This document shows, piece after piece, positions 5,860-11,583 of a stretch of DNA of 18,664 nucleotides (position 1 is its first letter; each line of letters starts with the position of its first letter). A model generated the notes under the pieces. The model was not told the DNA's origin. It did no database searches and saw nothing but the letters and a program-made list of their open reading frames with translations. Both the position numbers and the translations under genes were made by a program. The stretch is from Hyphomicrobiales bacterium (GTDB lineage Bacteria > Pseudomonadota > Alphaproteobacteria > Rhizobiales > Aestuariivirgaceae): contig JALVRJ010000050.1 of assembly GCA_027031305.1 (NCBI GenBank), positions 699-19,362 of the forward strand, given 5' to 3'.

Positions 5860-6582
<723 letters not shown>

Positions 6583-6651
6583 GCGTCCGCTCTCGGCACG
6601 CTCCGCCATGAAAGGCGCGACCGCGCCATCTCCCACGAGCCAGACACCGCA

Positions 6652-6673
6652 AAACCCGGCGCAAGCCGGGTTT
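6652..6673 (+). terminator. Intrinsic terminator of ctrA
   Basis: AAACCCGGC-GCAA-GCCGGGTTT: a perfect 9-bp stem closed by a GCAA tetraloop and followed by CTCCTT, 70 bases after the ctrA stop codon. Confidence 0.8.
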
Positions 6674-6761
6674 CTCCTTGCGCCACGCCAGGTCGTCCGC
6701 GCCAGGCCATCGCCACGCCGCGTCTCTCATCACCCCGCTACCGGGCGCGGCCCCGCATCGC

Positions 6762-7035
6762 TCAAGGCCCGGCGCGCAGCACGATCCCGTCCTCGCCCCG
6801 CTCCACCTCCAGCCCATGGCCCGCCTCCTGCGACAACAGCGGGGCGTAATGCCAACTTGCGTAAAGGCTGAAGGCTTCAAGCCCTCCAAGTCCCTGTTTT
6901 CGACAATTTGGGAATTGGGGGGCGCGGGGCTTCTGCGTGGTTCTTTATGCATTCCGGTATAACAGGCCGCACCACAGGGACGTCGACCTTCTCCGCCGCC
7001 ACCGCGCCACTCGGTACGGCGGCCGGCTTCTCCGG
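6762..7035 (-). pseudogene. Decayed 3' end of a second chpT, interrupted by an insertion
   Basis: Two blocks match the 3' end of intact chpT in the same orientation and reading frame. Block A (6762-6848) aligns gap-free with 10004-10090 with 73 of 87 bases identical and ends at the same stop position; its conceptual translation, YAPLLSQEAGHGLEVERG then EDGIVLRAGP-stop, matches YTLLLLQEANYGLDVEQG then EDEIVLRAAP. Block B (6961-7035) aligns with 10091-10165 (54 of 75 identical) and reads PEKPAAVPSGAVAAEKVDVP against PEKLVAVLTGEMAAERIDAH. The blocks are contiguous in chpT but separated here by 112 bases, which shift the frame and add an in-frame TAA. Homology stops abruptly near 7035, so the 5' two thirds is absent. 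Not functional. Confidence 0.8.
6849..6960. other. 112-bp insertion inside the chpT remnant
   Basis: Bases absent from the matching position of intact chpT (between 10090 and 10091). The insert is less GC-rich than its surroundings and contains an imperfect hairpin: AAGCCC (6879-6884), CCAA and TCCC pair with GGGA, TTGG and GGGCTT (6927-6932) around a 15-base loop. GTA occurs at both junctions (6846-6848 and 6957-6959), which may be a short target duplication or coincidence. No coding sequence is visible. It could be a small non-autonomous element or a patch of unrelated DNA. Confidence 0.5.
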
Positions 7036-7239
7036 CTTTCTGGACAGGGGAAAATCCTATGTGGCATACCATGCCGCGCGAAGATCGCCGGTGACCGCAC
7101 CCCGCGGGAAGGCGGAGGAATCTTCCGGTTTCGACAGGATACGCTGGCGCGGCGCGCGGCGCGCTGCGGAACGACAGGAAAAAGGGACGAGGACATGCAG
7201 TCGGCGGAAGCCCGCCGACAACCGCCCGGAGGAACATCA

Positions 7240-8724
7240 TTGCTGTTCAGCTCGCCCATTTTCCTGTTCGCCTTCCTGCCGGTGGTGCTCGCGGCGCTGT
7301 TTTCCATCGCGCGAAAAGGACTGACCTGGCAGAAGACGTTTCTGCTGGCGGCGTCGTTGTTCTTCTACGGCTGGTGGGAGTTCGGATACGTCTTTCTCCT
7401 GCTCCTCTCCATTGCCGCGAACTACCTGATCGCCACCAGGATTCTGTCCAACGGGCCGAATCCCGAAAGGGCGCGCCGGTGGCTGGTGGCGGGCCTGGCG
7501 CTGAACCTGGCGCTCATCGGATATTACAAGTATTTCAATTTCTTCGTGGACAACATCAACGCCCTGTTCGGTGACGTCGTTCCGCACTTTTCCATCATTC
7601 TTCCCATCGGCATTTCCTTCTTCACATTCCAGCAGATCGCCTTTCTGGTGGACGCCTACAAGGGGAAGGTGGAACACACGAATCCGCTGGACTACGGCCT
7701 GTTCGTCACCTTCTTTCCGCAGCTCATCGCCGGGCCCATCGTGCATCACAGCGACGTCATGCCGCAATTCGCCAGACGGCTGCGGCTGGAGCCGCATTAC
7801 TTCTCCACGGGCGCCAGCCTGTTCACCATCGGCCTGTTCAAGAAGCTGGTCGTCGCCGACGGGCTGGCGCCCATCGCCAATTTCGTCTTCGGCCAGGCGG
7901 ACAAGGGAGAGCCGCTGACCGCGGCGGTGAGCGCCATCGGTTTGCTCGCCTACACGTTTCAGCTCTATTTCGACTTCTCCGGCTATTCCGACATGGCCAT
8001 CGGCCTGGGGCTGATGATGGGCATCCGGCTGCCCATCAACTTTCTCTCCCCCTACAAGGCGGCCAGCGTCATCGACTTCTGGCGGCGATGGCACATCACC
8101 CTGTCGCGCTTTCTGCGCGACTATCTCTACATCCCGCTGGGCGGCAACCGGAAAGGCAAGGTGCGGCGCTACATCAACCTGATGATCACCATGCTGCTGG
8201 GTGGACTGTGGCACGGCGCCAGCTGGAACTTCGTCATCTGGGGCGGCCTGCATGGCCTCTACCTGATGATCAACCATGCCTGGAACGCCGTGAGGGAGCG
8301 TCGCTCCCTGCCGCATCTGCCGCGGCCGGCGGGGCTGGCGCTCACCTTCGGCGGCGTCATCATGGCCTGGGCCTTCTTCCGCGCGGAGACGCTATCCGGC
8401 GCGCTCTCGATGCTCTCCGCCCTCGTCGATCCTTCCGCCTACGTGGTGGACAAGGAAAGCCTGAAGGCGGTGGTGAAGGCGACGGGAAACAAGACGTCGC
8501 ACGTGCTGGCCCTGTTCGCCGCCGCCTTCGTCATCACGTTTGCGCTGCCGGCGGCTTCCGCCTATCACTTGCGGGCGCTCGATGGAGATGCGCGGGGCGC
8601 GCCGGCGGAATTCAGCCGAACCTTCCGCGCGGATGCGGCGCATTTCGCACTCTTCGTCATCGTGTGGGCGGCCATCCTCTTCGCTTCCGGTGGGGCAAAT
8701 GAATTCCTCTACTTCCAGTTCTGA
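7240..8724 (+). CDS. MBOAT-family O-acyltransferase (AlgI/DltB/PatA-like)
   Basis: Polytopic membrane protein of about 494 residues, typical for AlgI-type MBOATs, which take acyl groups from a cytoplasmic donor and pass them across the inner membrane for O-acylation of polysaccharide. Family landmarks: LFSSPIFLFAFLPVV at the start, FFYGWWE, PIGISFFTFQQIAFLVD, FFPQLIAGPIVHH, SGYSDMAIGLG, INFLSPYKAASVIDFWRRWH, and the catalytic-histidine region GGLWHGASWNFVIWGGLHG near residues 320-338. The preferred start is TTG at 7240 behind CGGAGGA, because homologues begin ML-F-S-P. An in-frame ATG at 7195 behind GAGG is an alternative; a CGGCGG/CCGCCG hairpin (7202-7217) lies between them. It overlaps the SGNH gene by 26 bases, so the two form an operon. 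Confidence 0.92.
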   Translation: MLFSSPIFLFAFLPVVLAALFSIARKGLTWQKTFLLAASLFFYGWWEFGYVFLLLLSIAANYLIATRILSNGPNPERARRWLVAGLALNLALIGYYKYFNFFVDNINALFGDVVPHFSIILPIGISFFTFQQIAFLVDAYKGKVEHTNPLDYGLFVTFFPQLIAGPIVHHSDVMPQFARRLRLEPHYFSTGASLFTIGLFKKLVVADGLAPIANFVFGQADKGEPLTAAVSAIGLLAYTFQLYFDFSGYSDMAIGLGLMMGIRLPINFLSPYKAASVIDFWRRWHITLSRFLRDYLYIPLGGNRKGKVRRYINLMITMLLGGLWHGASWNFVIWGGLHGLYLMINHAWNAVRERRSLPHLPRPAGLALTFGGVIMAWAFFRAETLSGALSMLSALVDPSAYVVDKESLKAVVKATGNKTSHVLALFAAAFVITFALPAASAYHLRALDGDARGAPAEFSRTFRADAAHFALFVIVWAAILFASGGANEFLYFQF

Positions 8725-9976
8725 CAGGCACGATTTCGCCAGGGCCTTCGCCATTGGCGCGGCCGCCCTGTTGCTGGCGCTGGCGGCCGGATACTGGCTC
8801 GTGCGGATCTATTTCACCCTCACCGGGGACTTCCTGCCGCTGTCCAAGGCGGCGGAACGGTTGCTGGAAAACAACGAACGGCGAGTGTGCCTCTACATGA
8901 ACGTCATTTCCTCCGGCACGGACGCGAACCTGAAATTCGAGCTGTTTCGAAGGAGGAAAAGGCCTCCGGAGCTCGTCGTGCTGGGCTCTTCCCGCGTTTT
9001 GGCCCTCTATCAGCCCATGTTCCGCGCCCCCTTCCTGAACATGGGCAGGGCCTATCAGTTCCCCGCCTGGGAAAGGGAAGTCATCGACGCGATCGACGCC
9101 AAGGGCGCCAGGCCCCGGCTGGCGCTGATCGGCGTGGATTTCTGGTGGTTCAACGCGCGCTACATGAGAAAATCGCGCGCGGTGTCCTCGGGCGGGATCA
9201 CCCGCATCGATCCGAACGATCCACGCCAGTTGCGCATCATCGTGAAAAGGAGCTGGGAAAATCCTTCCTACTGGAGCCTGCTTCCGCAGATGGCCAGCCT
9301 GCCGGCCTGTCCGGTGGGCATCCTCGCACGGCTGAAGAACGTCGGCTACCTGCCCGATGGCGGTGTGGTTTACCGGATAACGCCGGCCACCTCCAAGGAT
9401 CGGCGCTTTCGGGACTCCCTTGGCAGAATACGGCGTGACAAGGGGGAATTCTCGACGGCGTCCGCCCCGGACGAACGGCAGACAGGAATCGTCCTGCGCT
9501 TCATGCGCCAACTGCGGGAGCGGGGCGTGAAGGTCGTCGCCTATGCGCCACCCGTGGCGCCAACCGTGTATCGGGCGATGCGCGAAAACGGCGATTACAG
9601 CTACATCGAGCGGGCCTTCACAGCCCTGAAGCGGGCCGGCATCACGTTCCACGACTATCTCGACCCGGCCCGGCTGGGGCTTGAGGATTGCGAATTTCTC
9701 GACGGCTTCCACCCGGGCGACGTCGCCAATGCCCTGTTGCTGCTGGACATGGCGCGGCGCGAACCGCAACTGTCCCGGGTTATGGACCTTTCGTTCCTGC
9801 GGCGGCTGGCCGCGAACCGGGGCATGTCCATGGCGATTTCCGATGCGCTGACGGGACGGAAGGAAGGAGACCACCTCGGTCTCGGCTGCCCGAAACGGCT
9901 GTCCGCCCCCCTGCCGATGGAGAAACTCTCCCGGGCCTATCTTCGTCCGCCACGCTCCGGGCGAGAGGCTCACTGA
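8699..9976 (+). CDS. Membrane-anchored SGNH-hydrolase-like protein, partner of the MBOAT acyltransferase
   Basis: 425 residues: N-terminal signal anchor (about 14-35, FARAFAIGAAALLLALAAGY), then an extracytoplasmic domain. Block I reads VVLGSSR (G96-S97-S98), a GSS-type nucleophile motif as in DltD, AlgJ/AlgX and PatB-type proteins. GVDFWWFN follows in the middle, and the block V Asp-x-x-His is DGFHPGD (D335, H338). In such pairs the MBOAT exports the acyl group and the SGNH protein transfers it to, or edits it on, the polysaccharide. ATG at 8699 lies inside the end of the MBOAT gene, implying translational coupling. The gene ends 27 bases from the convergent chpT stop. No alginate or cellulose synthase is nearby, so the acceptor polymer is unknown. 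Confidence 0.82.
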   Translation: MNSSTSSSDRHDFARAFAIGAAALLLALAAGYWLVRIYFTLTGDFLPLSKAAERLLENNERRVCLYMNVISSGTDANLKFELFRRRKRPPELVVLGSSRVLALYQPMFRAPFLNMGRAYQFPAWEREVIDAIDAKGARPRLALIGVDFWWFNARYMRKSRAVSSGGITRIDPNDPRQLRIIVKRSWENPSYWSLLPQMASLPACPVGILARLKNVGYLPDGGVVYRITPATSKDRRFRDSLGRIRRDKGEFSTASAPDERQTGIVLRFMRQLRERGVKVVAYAPPVAPTVYRAMRENGDYSYIERAFTALKRAGITFHDYLDPARLGLEDCEFLDGFHPGDVANALLLLDMARREPQLSRVMDLSFLRRLAANRGMSMAISDALTGRKEGDHLGLGCPKRLSAPLPMEKLSRAYLRPPRSGREAH

Positions 9977-10003
9977 AGCCGCGGCAGCGAGCGTGTTGGA
10001 AGG

Positions 10004-10165
10004 TCAGGGCGCGGCGCGCAGAACGATCTCGTCCTCGCCCTGCTCCACGTCCAGCCCGTAGTTCGCCTCCTGCAACAGCAGCAGGGTGTAGTAGGGCTGC
10101 ACCAGGTGGGCGTCGATCCTCTCCGCCGCCATCTCTCCGGTCAGCACGGCGACCAGCTTTTCCGG
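10004..10165. repeat. Right copy of the direct repeat flanking the acylation cassette (3' end of chpT)
   Basis: These 162 bases, the last 54 codons of intact chpT including the stop, are the counterpart of 6762-6848 plus 6961-7035. Both copies are in the same orientation, so the MBOAT and SGNH genes lie between direct repeats. Confidence 0.75.
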
Positions 10166-10636
10166 CAGCGCCGCCCGCGATCCCTTCGCCGTCAGCACCA
10201 TTTCATCGCCGTTCACGTCCACCACCAGCTCGCCACCACGCGGAATGCACTCCCGCGCGATCAGCAACAGGTTCAGCAGCAGCTTCACCACCGCCTTCGG
10301 CCGGTTTTCCAGCGGCGCCCGCCAGTTCAGCGTGGCCCGCTTGTCGTCCGCCAGCAGGTTCTCCGCCAGGGCCCGCGCGTCGCCCAGGGAGATGTCGTCG
10401 CCCAGCGACCCCGCCGCGCCGAAGGCCAGCCGCGCATAGGCCAGCCGGTTGGCCGCGCGGCGGCCCGAATTGGCGATCAGGTCCAGCGCCGCCCGCCTGA
10501 TTTCCGGGTCCTGGCTGGTTTCCAGCATCTCCATGCCGTTGCCGATGTTGCCCATCAGCGAGATGATGTCGTGACAGATGCGGCTACCGATGAGCGAGGC
10601 GAGCTGCAAGTCGTTCAGGCGGTTGGAATCGGTCAT
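10004..10636 (-). CDS. chpT: Histidine phosphotransferase ChpT
   Basis: A 210-residue protein with the ChpT layout: an N-terminal helical-hairpin dimerisation domain bearing the phospho-histidine H22 in SRICHDIISLMGNIGNGMEM, and a degenerate GHKL/ATPase-like C-terminal domain (RPKAVVKLLLNLLLIARECI, GGELVVDVNGDEMVLTAKG) that does not bind ATP in characterised homologues. ChpT relays phosphate from the hybrid kinase CckA to CtrA and CpdR in the cytoplasm. The start is ATG at 10634-10636 after GGGAGGGGG. It is divergent from cysQ and convergent with the SGNH gene. In several alphaproteobacteria chpT lies beside ctrA; here the acylation cassette and a chpT remnant separate them. Confidence 0.93.
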   Translation of the reverse strand: MTDSNRLNDLQLASLIGSRICHDIISLMGNIGNGMEMLETSQDPEIRRAALDLIANSGRRAANRLAYARLAFGAAGSLGDDISLGDARALAENLLADDKRATLNWRAPLENRPKAVVKLLLNLLLIARECIPRGGELVVDVNGDEMVLTAKGSRAALPEKLVAVLTGEMAAERIDAHLVQPYYTLLLLQEANYGLDVEQGEDEIVLRAAP

Positions 10637-10770
10637 GGTGGCATCCCCCTCCCGTTGGCGCGAAACGCCGCGGCTGAAAGCCTTGCGTATTCCGGCGCCC
10701 GTGCGAATCATTGCAAAAGGCATCCGTTTTTTCCATACAGGGCGCGAAGCGCATTGCAAGGAAAGACCGC

Positions 10771-11583
10771 ATGTCCACGCCCCTGCCCGAAATGCTCGAA
10801 ACCCTCGCCCGCGCCGCCCACGGCGCCGGCCGCATCGTGCTGGACGTGCGCGAAGGCGGCATGAAGGTGCGCCGCAAGCCCGATGATTCGCCGGTCACAC
10901 AGGCCGACACCATGGCCGAGGAATACATCGAGCGCGCGCTCGCCAGCGCCTTCCCCGGCCTGCCGTTCATCGGTGAAGAGCTCACCGCCGCCGGTCGCCA
11001 GGTGGCCCCCGCCGAGCGCTTCTTTCTTGTCGACCCGCTGGACGGCACCAGGGAATTCATCGCCGGGCGCGATTCCTTCTCCACCAACATCGCGCTCGTC
11101 GAGCACGGCCGGCCGGTGGCCGGGGTCATCTACGCGCCACTGCGCGCCGAGATGATCGCGGGGGCCCCCGGCGAGGGCCTGTGGCGCGCCCGCGTGGACG
11201 CCCACGCCCCCTTCGACGCTTCGGCGCTGCGCCCCTTCACCCCCTTCGTCGAACCGCGCCCCATGCGCCGGGCCGTCGTGTCGTTCTCGCACCTCGATGA
11301 AAGAACCCTGCGTTGGCTGAAGGCGCGCGGCGTGACCGATCAGGTGCGCATGGGCTCCGCCTACAAGTTCTGCCTGTTGCTCACCGGCGAGGCCGACGTC
11401 TATCCGCGTTTTGGCCCCACCATGGAGTGGGACACCGCCGCCGGCCATGCCCTGCTGCAAGCCGCCGGCGGCGCGGTGCTATTGCCCGACGGCTCCGCCC
11501 CCCTCACCTACGGCCACGTGAACAGGGGCTTTCTCAACCCCGGCTTCGTCGCCTTCGCGCCGGGCGTGGAGGCCCGCACATGA
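10771..11583 (+). CDS. cysQ: 3'(2'),5'-bisphosphate nucleotidase, inositol monophosphatase family
   Basis: Hydrolyses 3'-phosphoadenosine 5'-phosphate (PAP) to AMP, recycling the by-product of sulfate activation; it also belongs to the Li+-sensitive, Mg2+-dependent phosphatase family. 270 residues. Metal-site motifs are complete: GEE (68-70), DPLDGT (88-93) and WDTAAGHALLQAAGG (from W220), plus SPVTQADTMAEEYI near residue 40. ATG at 10771 follows AAGGAAAG; an in-frame extension to 10711 has no comparable ribosome-binding site. Its TGA overlaps the next gene's ATG (ATGA), so it is translationally coupled with the lytic transglycosylase, an unexpected pairing of nucleotide salvage and cell-wall turnover. 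Confidence 0.92.
   Translation: MSTPLPEMLETLARAAHGAGRIVLDVREGGMKVRRKPDDSPVTQADTMAEEYIERALASAFPGLPFIGEELTAAGRQVAPAERFFLVDPLDGTREFIAGRDSFSTNIALVEHGRPVAGVIYAPLRAEMIAGAPGEGLWRARVDAHAPFDASALRPFTPFVEPRPMRRAVVSFSHLDERTLRWLKARGVTDQVRMGSAYKFCLLLTGEADVYPRFGPTMEWDTAAGHALLQAAGGAVLLPDGSAPLTYGHVNRGFLNPGFVAFAPGVEART

Follow-up and report, generated by a model that had tools for sequence, protein, structure and literature searches.

The segment beside ctrA at positions 6762-7038 of the window (the whole stretch of 18,664 nucleotides analyzed here) is probably a dead partial duplicate of the 3' end of the organism's own chpT gene, made in this lineage together with the insertion of a gene pair and later hit by a MITE-like element. 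The gene order in the window is ctrA, the orphan chpT tail, an MBOAT and DUF1574-like pair, and the intact chpT. The ctrA gene (5860..6582, plus strand) encodes a response regulator with the Pfam domains Response_reg and Trans_reg_C and matches the NCBIfam CtrA model NF045991 with 399 bits (cutoff 350); the intact chpT (10004..10639, minus strand) matches Pfam HPTransfase with 117 bits and the NCBIfam ChpT model with 222 bits, slightly below the cutoff of 240. The inserted pair consists of an MBOAT O-acyltransferase gene (7240..8724, plus strand, TTG start inferred; Pfam MBOAT, 125.5 bits) and a DUF1574-like partner gene (8702..9976, plus strand, start uncertain), and on the other side of the intact chpT lies an inositol monophosphatase-family, cysQ-like gene (10771..11583, plus strand; Pfam Inositol_P, 164 bits). 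The source genome is the draft of an uncultured bacterium, 2.0 Mb in 438 contigs and 87% complete.

The tail copy consists of two halves, both on the minus strand. The stop-side half (6762..6849) is identical to the 3' end of the intact chpT at 73 of 87 bases (6762-6848 versus 10004-10090), and the body-side half at 54 of 75 bases (6961-7035 versus 10091-10165); these are exactly the counts given in a preliminary description, which had taken the segment for the remnant of a second chpT allele. The stop triplets of the two copies coincide (TCA on the plus strand), as had also been claimed. Followed to the end of the similarity, the body-side half (6963..7038) is identical at 55 of 76 positions at an offset of 3130. 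BLASTN yields E = 1e-23 for the stop-side block and 3e-11 for the body-side block (6965-7036, 55/72), and the top local score between the tail copy and chpT, 104, is far above the maximum of 38 in 1000 dinucleotide shuffles. Chance similarity is rejected by this control, and the proposed descent from a real chpT is borne out by it and by the significant nucleotide homology. When the own genome was searched in six frames with ChpT, the stop-side half was recovered separately (E = 2.2e-4, 66%, residues 183-211), and the body-side half was absent from the match list.

The similarity sets on at the stop codon and reaches background level by approximately 7038-7042, and no homology to chpT was found past approximately 7042. 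The copy spans only the last ~163 nt (~54 codons) of chpT, with neither the gene body nor a start codon. The halves are separated by a 110-bp element (6850..6959) with TAA on both sides, the left duplicate at 6847-6849 and the right one at 6960..6962; the preliminary description had overlooked this transposable repeat. Between the two homologous blocks the register shifts by 112, one less than the 113 bp of the element with one TAA, hence the tail copy has suffered a net deletion of one base and is frameshifted even apart from the element. Homology to chpT, a disabled frame, the missing body and start, and the lack of coding constraint described below characterize a pseudogene fragment. A second functional chpT allele is not supported, as only the last ~54 codons can be read as ChpT, with an interruption and a shift of frame, in place of a complete HPTransfase frame.

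The preliminary description held most differences between the two copies to be codon-compatible, which did not hold up: the 35 differences between the remnant and the intact chpT fall on codon positions 1, 2 and 3 as 9/16/10, without third-position bias. The distribution fits neutrality, with little power (p = 0.29 for uniformity). Against the chpT of the relative G004 the remnant differs at 12/15/16 sites, and the respective counts for the intact own chpT are 7/5/12 (G004), 13/6/16 (G005) and 16/8/19 (G007). Using G004, G005 and G007 for comparison, we could place 25 of the changes on the remnant and 4 on the intact gene (25 versus 4, p = 1e-4), the remaining 6 being assigned to neither. Among 90 sites invariant in five relatives, 18 are broken in the remnant versus 5 in the intact gene (p = 0.006). 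The codon-position counts and the assigned changes point to neutral decay of a dead tail, not of a once-living second allele; most likely the remnant decayed without selection, although the power of these sequence comparisons is modest.

A tree was built from 163 alignable columns of seven sequences, namely the remnant, the own intact chpT, and chpT of G002, G004, G005, G007 and G008; the other five of the ten genus relatives have tails that are out of register or of different length and were excluded. The remnant and the own intact chpT group together with bootstrap 87. The AU test gives p = 0.89 for this grouping, 0.17 for the remnant joining G004, 0.06 for its placement just outside the own gene and G004, and approximately 0.001 for both deeper placements tested, rejecting a deep-branching foreign allele. 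Given the tree and the AU values, the copy most likely arose within this lineage, around the time of its divergence from G004 or later, with the modest power that 163 bases afford. The intact chpT itself does not look foreign, since the identity of its product to those of G004 and G005 (73% and 69%) resembles that of the neighbor genes (74% and 70% for the CysQ-like protein, 76% and 74% for SLT). The earlier suggestion of a gene duplication or allele replacement thus stands in its first part, as a partial duplication, and is not supported in its second, because the intact ChpT is about as similar to G004 and G005 as its neighbors are and the remnant groups with the own gene. A second chpT allele is likewise not supported; with only the 3' end present, nothing points to a complete second chpT at any time.

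Comparison of the ctrA-chpT interval in relatives, which had been proposed as a check, demonstrated that the two genes are direct convergent neighbors, with no called gene and no MBOAT and DUF1574-like pair between them, in G004, G005, G007 and G013, the last of which belongs to another genus of the family. The spacing between the ctrA and chpT matches is about 75-235 bp in G004, G005 and G007, and in G015 the ctrA match ends about 210 bp from chpT. The window has the same neighbor genes to the left and right, so we regard the insertion between ctrA and chpT as derived; the tail copy, which adjoins ctrA, occupies the ancestral place of the chpT end. On the other side, the cysQ-like gene adjoins chpT in the fetched stretches of 15 of 16 relatives (no match in that of G001, L083) and is the ancestral right-hand neighbor of chpT. 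The adjacency of ctrA and chpT is not universal: the genes are about 2 kb apart in G009 and G010, 1.2 kb in G027 and 39 kb in G003, and they lie on separate contigs in G002, G006 and G008. The stretches fetched around chpT in G002, G003, G006, G008, G017, G018 and G030 contain no ctrA, and G001 has no ctrA match at E <= 1e-60.

In G009 (L117) and G010 (L086) a different gene pair lies between ctrA and chpT, coding for a large membrane protein and a smaller one and presumably DUF2157/GDYXXLXY-like; the junction has therefore held different genes. A TBLASTN search for second chpT tails near ctrA, covering L118-L121 (G008, G002, G003 and G006), L085 and L117 (G009), and L086 (G010), gave only the intact genes and one match with E = 3.7, at a protein level where a decayed tail could escape. 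In G011, a tail-only chpT match (L115) reaches a contig end, and the other contig with chpT (L116) is also cut at its own end; since both stop at contig ends, this is probably one gene split in the assembly.

The inserted genes look foreign. The only NCBIfam match of the MBOAT gene is DltB, with 164 bits, below the cutoff of 375, and the partner gene (8768-9973) has no Pfam or NCBIfam match; it is called DUF1574-like because one of the ten proteins listed for it, its own product included, carries PF07611, which we take to be DUF1574. Two matches of the partner protein to PDB sequences (E = 0.06 and 0.14) were discarded as not meaningful. The listed frames of the two genes overlap slightly (window 7240-9976). 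A survey of 60 genomes, queried with the partner gene only, found it in three, namely the own genome, G003 and G026, and the distribution of the pair is sporadic. In both G003 and G026 the partner adjoins an MBOAT gene, with MBOAT identities of 59% and 51%, respectively, and no CtrA or ChpT match was detected beside the pair in the 10 and 9.5 kb compared. An MBOAT gene adjoining a DUF1574-like partner in all three genomes resembles the paired MBOAT/DltD-type acylation genes, with the partner as a possible analogue of DltD; the difference is that the DltB model match here is below cutoff. No convincing terminal repeats of the insert were found in 6960-10060.

The element between the tail halves is a copy of a dispersed MITE-like palindrome with inverted ends TACCAG...CTGGTA and an imperfect end-to-end inverted repeat that forms a long hairpin. 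Full-length copies are 110-127 bp, and the 125-nt consensus of 29 of them (the window copy included) folds end to end with -78.4 kcal/mol as RNA; a further entry, L029, had zero length and was set aside as an artefact. A search of the own genome with 6600-7240 returned the segment itself, two pieces of the intact chpT and at least 38 further places, all of which match the stretch between the tail halves; this number is a lower bound, with 40 of 162 candidates scored. The own genome holds at least 39 other copies, full or partial, two of them in a single locus (L027) and some cut by contig ends. Identical TNA trinucleotides flank both sides of 19 of the 29 full-length own-genome copies, including the one in the window, and are lacking or cut in the other 10. 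Allowing up to three mismatches, we counted 34 occurrences of the 31-base right end in the own genome and 0 of the reversed control. Among the 60 genomes, the element was matched (E <= 1e-5) only in the own genome (G000), G004, G005 and G007, all four of the same genus, and the three relatives contain 17 copies with identical TNA on both sides. The exact right-end pattern was not found in the genome_contigs (35 bases) or viral_contigs (30 bases) collections, which may lack entries from the own genome or close to it. In the vicinity of the tail copy, no Rfam match was obtained in 6560-7260 at E <= 1, and a scan of 6500-7300 detected no promoter-like site and one terminator-like site, within the element, versus 1.0 expected.

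Short and non-coding, with terminal inverted repeats and a target-site duplication, the element is a MITE by its structure, and its small size, inverted repeat, 3-bp TNA flanks and dozens of copies are like those of bacterial MITEs. TNA is the target of IS427 and IS1031. A search for PF01609 in G000, G004, G005 and G007 found no parent transposase with the ends of the element; there was no match at all in G000, G005 and G007 and one place in G004, the fetched locus of which is without element-like ends. According to a passage of PMC2516522, insertion at a three-nucleotide site characterizes the IS1031 group of the IS5 family, and the Paracoccus elements of the IS427 group mostly have 2-bp repeats according to an excerpt of PMC3281130. 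As no parent transposase was found, its family is one that we infer: it is perhaps related to IS5-family insertion sequences, with the group not fixed.

Several other features of the repeat loci were observed. Several draft contigs end in or near the element. The copies in L028 and L033 have the left half replaced by other DNA, or stand beside another palindromic repeat, GAAGCGCCAATGGCGA...TCGCCATTGGCGCTTC; the same is seen in the flanks of L009, L040 and L140, and by eye this repeat constitutes a second dispersed family. In L037, the central segment of the copy appears by eye to be inverted relative to the consensus. Finally, L124 (contig C35 of G004) contains a repeat array that looks CRISPR-like by eye, with a unit translating as LQPSPEEKGIKT, and adjoins a transposase with two separate matching pieces, of which the second contains an internal stop.

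We also analyzed the insertion targets of the family. The consensus gave 56 BLASTN hits, partial ones counted, on either strand of the loci fetched from the own genome and relatives. When the ends were permitted to move by a few bases, 35 distinct copies had identical TNA on both sides and were retained; the remaining hits were discarded, as was the window copy. Read in the orientation of the element, the target is TAA or TGA in 27 copies versus TCA or TTA in 8 (n = 35, p = 0.002). In 9 of the 35 the target coincides with the stop that ends a called frame of 100 codons or more, versus 47 of 503 intergenic TNA sites (p = 0.004), and a cruder count gave 12/29 versus 209/1388 TNA sites. The nine stop-codon targets split 6 versus 3 between the left and right sides, which is not significant (p = 0.51). 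Because of this split, the crude gene calling and spurious frames in GC-rich DNA, the excess is a lead only. That the family is adapted to stop codons, with TNA targets at stops in excess, the TAA/TGA orientation preferred, and the upstream gene keeping its stop and gaining a strong 3' hairpin, is a possibility that we regard as rather doubtful. The term "stop codon" is absent from the main text of one MITE review (PMC10969869), which is no proof that such a preference is unpublished.

These observations are consistent with the following scenario. In the ancestral state, ctrA and chpT would have faced each other directly. The MBOAT and DUF1574-like segment would have entered at the chpT end along with another copy of the final ~160 nt of the gene, most simply if a molecule carrying such a piece beside the gene pair recombined with the chpT 3' end in a single crossover. 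The orphan tail would then lie between ctrA and the new genes, with the intact chpT behind them. As a direct repeat, the duplicated block stands on both sides of the insert, and its orphan copy reaches from the stop codon, nearest ctrA, to about 7038, where it is cut toward the gene body; this is the geometry that a single crossover would produce. A partial tandem duplication followed by insertion can lead to the same arrangement, and the crossover needs fewer steps; the tail and the gene pair could also have arrived in separate events. Neither a donor molecule nor an intermediate strain was found. The orphan tail, free of selection, would then have decayed and lost one base, and a non-autonomous transposable element of ~110 bp would have landed in it at TAA. 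The MITE came later, since the halves follow each other as they do in chpT and have the TAA in common.

Other histories of the segment have to be weighed against this partial duplication. The orphan tail could be the original chpT end, if an intact chpT from another strain, with or without the gene pair, displaced the original gene. The ancestral position of the orphan next to ctrA would agree with such an allele replacement, as would two residues, G and K, that the orphan and G004 share and that are N and R in the intact gene, and the AU value of 0.06 for a placement just outside the own gene and G004. However, the intact ChpT is about as distant from G004 and G005 as the neighbor genes are, and most assigned changes lie on the remnant without codon bias, thus leaving no trace of time as a functional foreign allele. 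We consider a replacement unlikely on these grounds; a very close strain as donor would be compatible with them. A complete tandem duplication of chpT, followed by a deletion down to the last 160 nt that brought in or preceded the gene pair, would explain the common orientation and stop codon position; it is quite improbable, as it requires an extra deletion ending in the tail and chpT leaves no trace past ~7042.

Integration islands are known to use gene ends as sites, and an island with a recombinase, integrated at the chpT 3' end, would produce an identical geometry: a replacement end would come with the island, and the displaced one would remain beyond it. In this case the recombinase would since have been lost. 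Against this reading, no recombinase domain is seen in the MBOAT gene or in its partner, which lacks any Pfam match, and G009 and G010, with another gene pair at the same junction, gave no second chpT match at the protein level, where a decayed tail could go unnoticed. Site-specific integration of this kind is very improbable. For a draft of 438 contigs, several of them ending in or near the repeat, a chimeric assembly through the repeat also had to be considered, but a chimeric join would not give two halves that follow directly on each other in chpT, with the same TAA at both flanks; together with chance similarity, at odds with the shuffle scores, it has a negligible probability.

The partial duplicate resembles truncated gene copies (pseudogene fragments) at insertions in being partial, frameshifted, without codon bias, and part of a direct repeat around inserted genes; only its place, the ctrA-chpT junction, is unusual here. 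No chpT remnant of such kind is mentioned in the titles and abstract openings of the papers listed on ChpT-CtrA synteny in alphaproteobacteria or on chpT pseudogenes. The tail copy is an ordinary genomic scar and not a second allele in the phosphorelay. The CckA-ChpT-CtrA module is not duplicated in the sequence examined, and one ChpT remains. A match to a gene tail beside a core regulator can flag an insertion site rather than regulatory evolution, and the ctrA-chpT junction tolerates insertions in the genus, the inserted genes differing between species.
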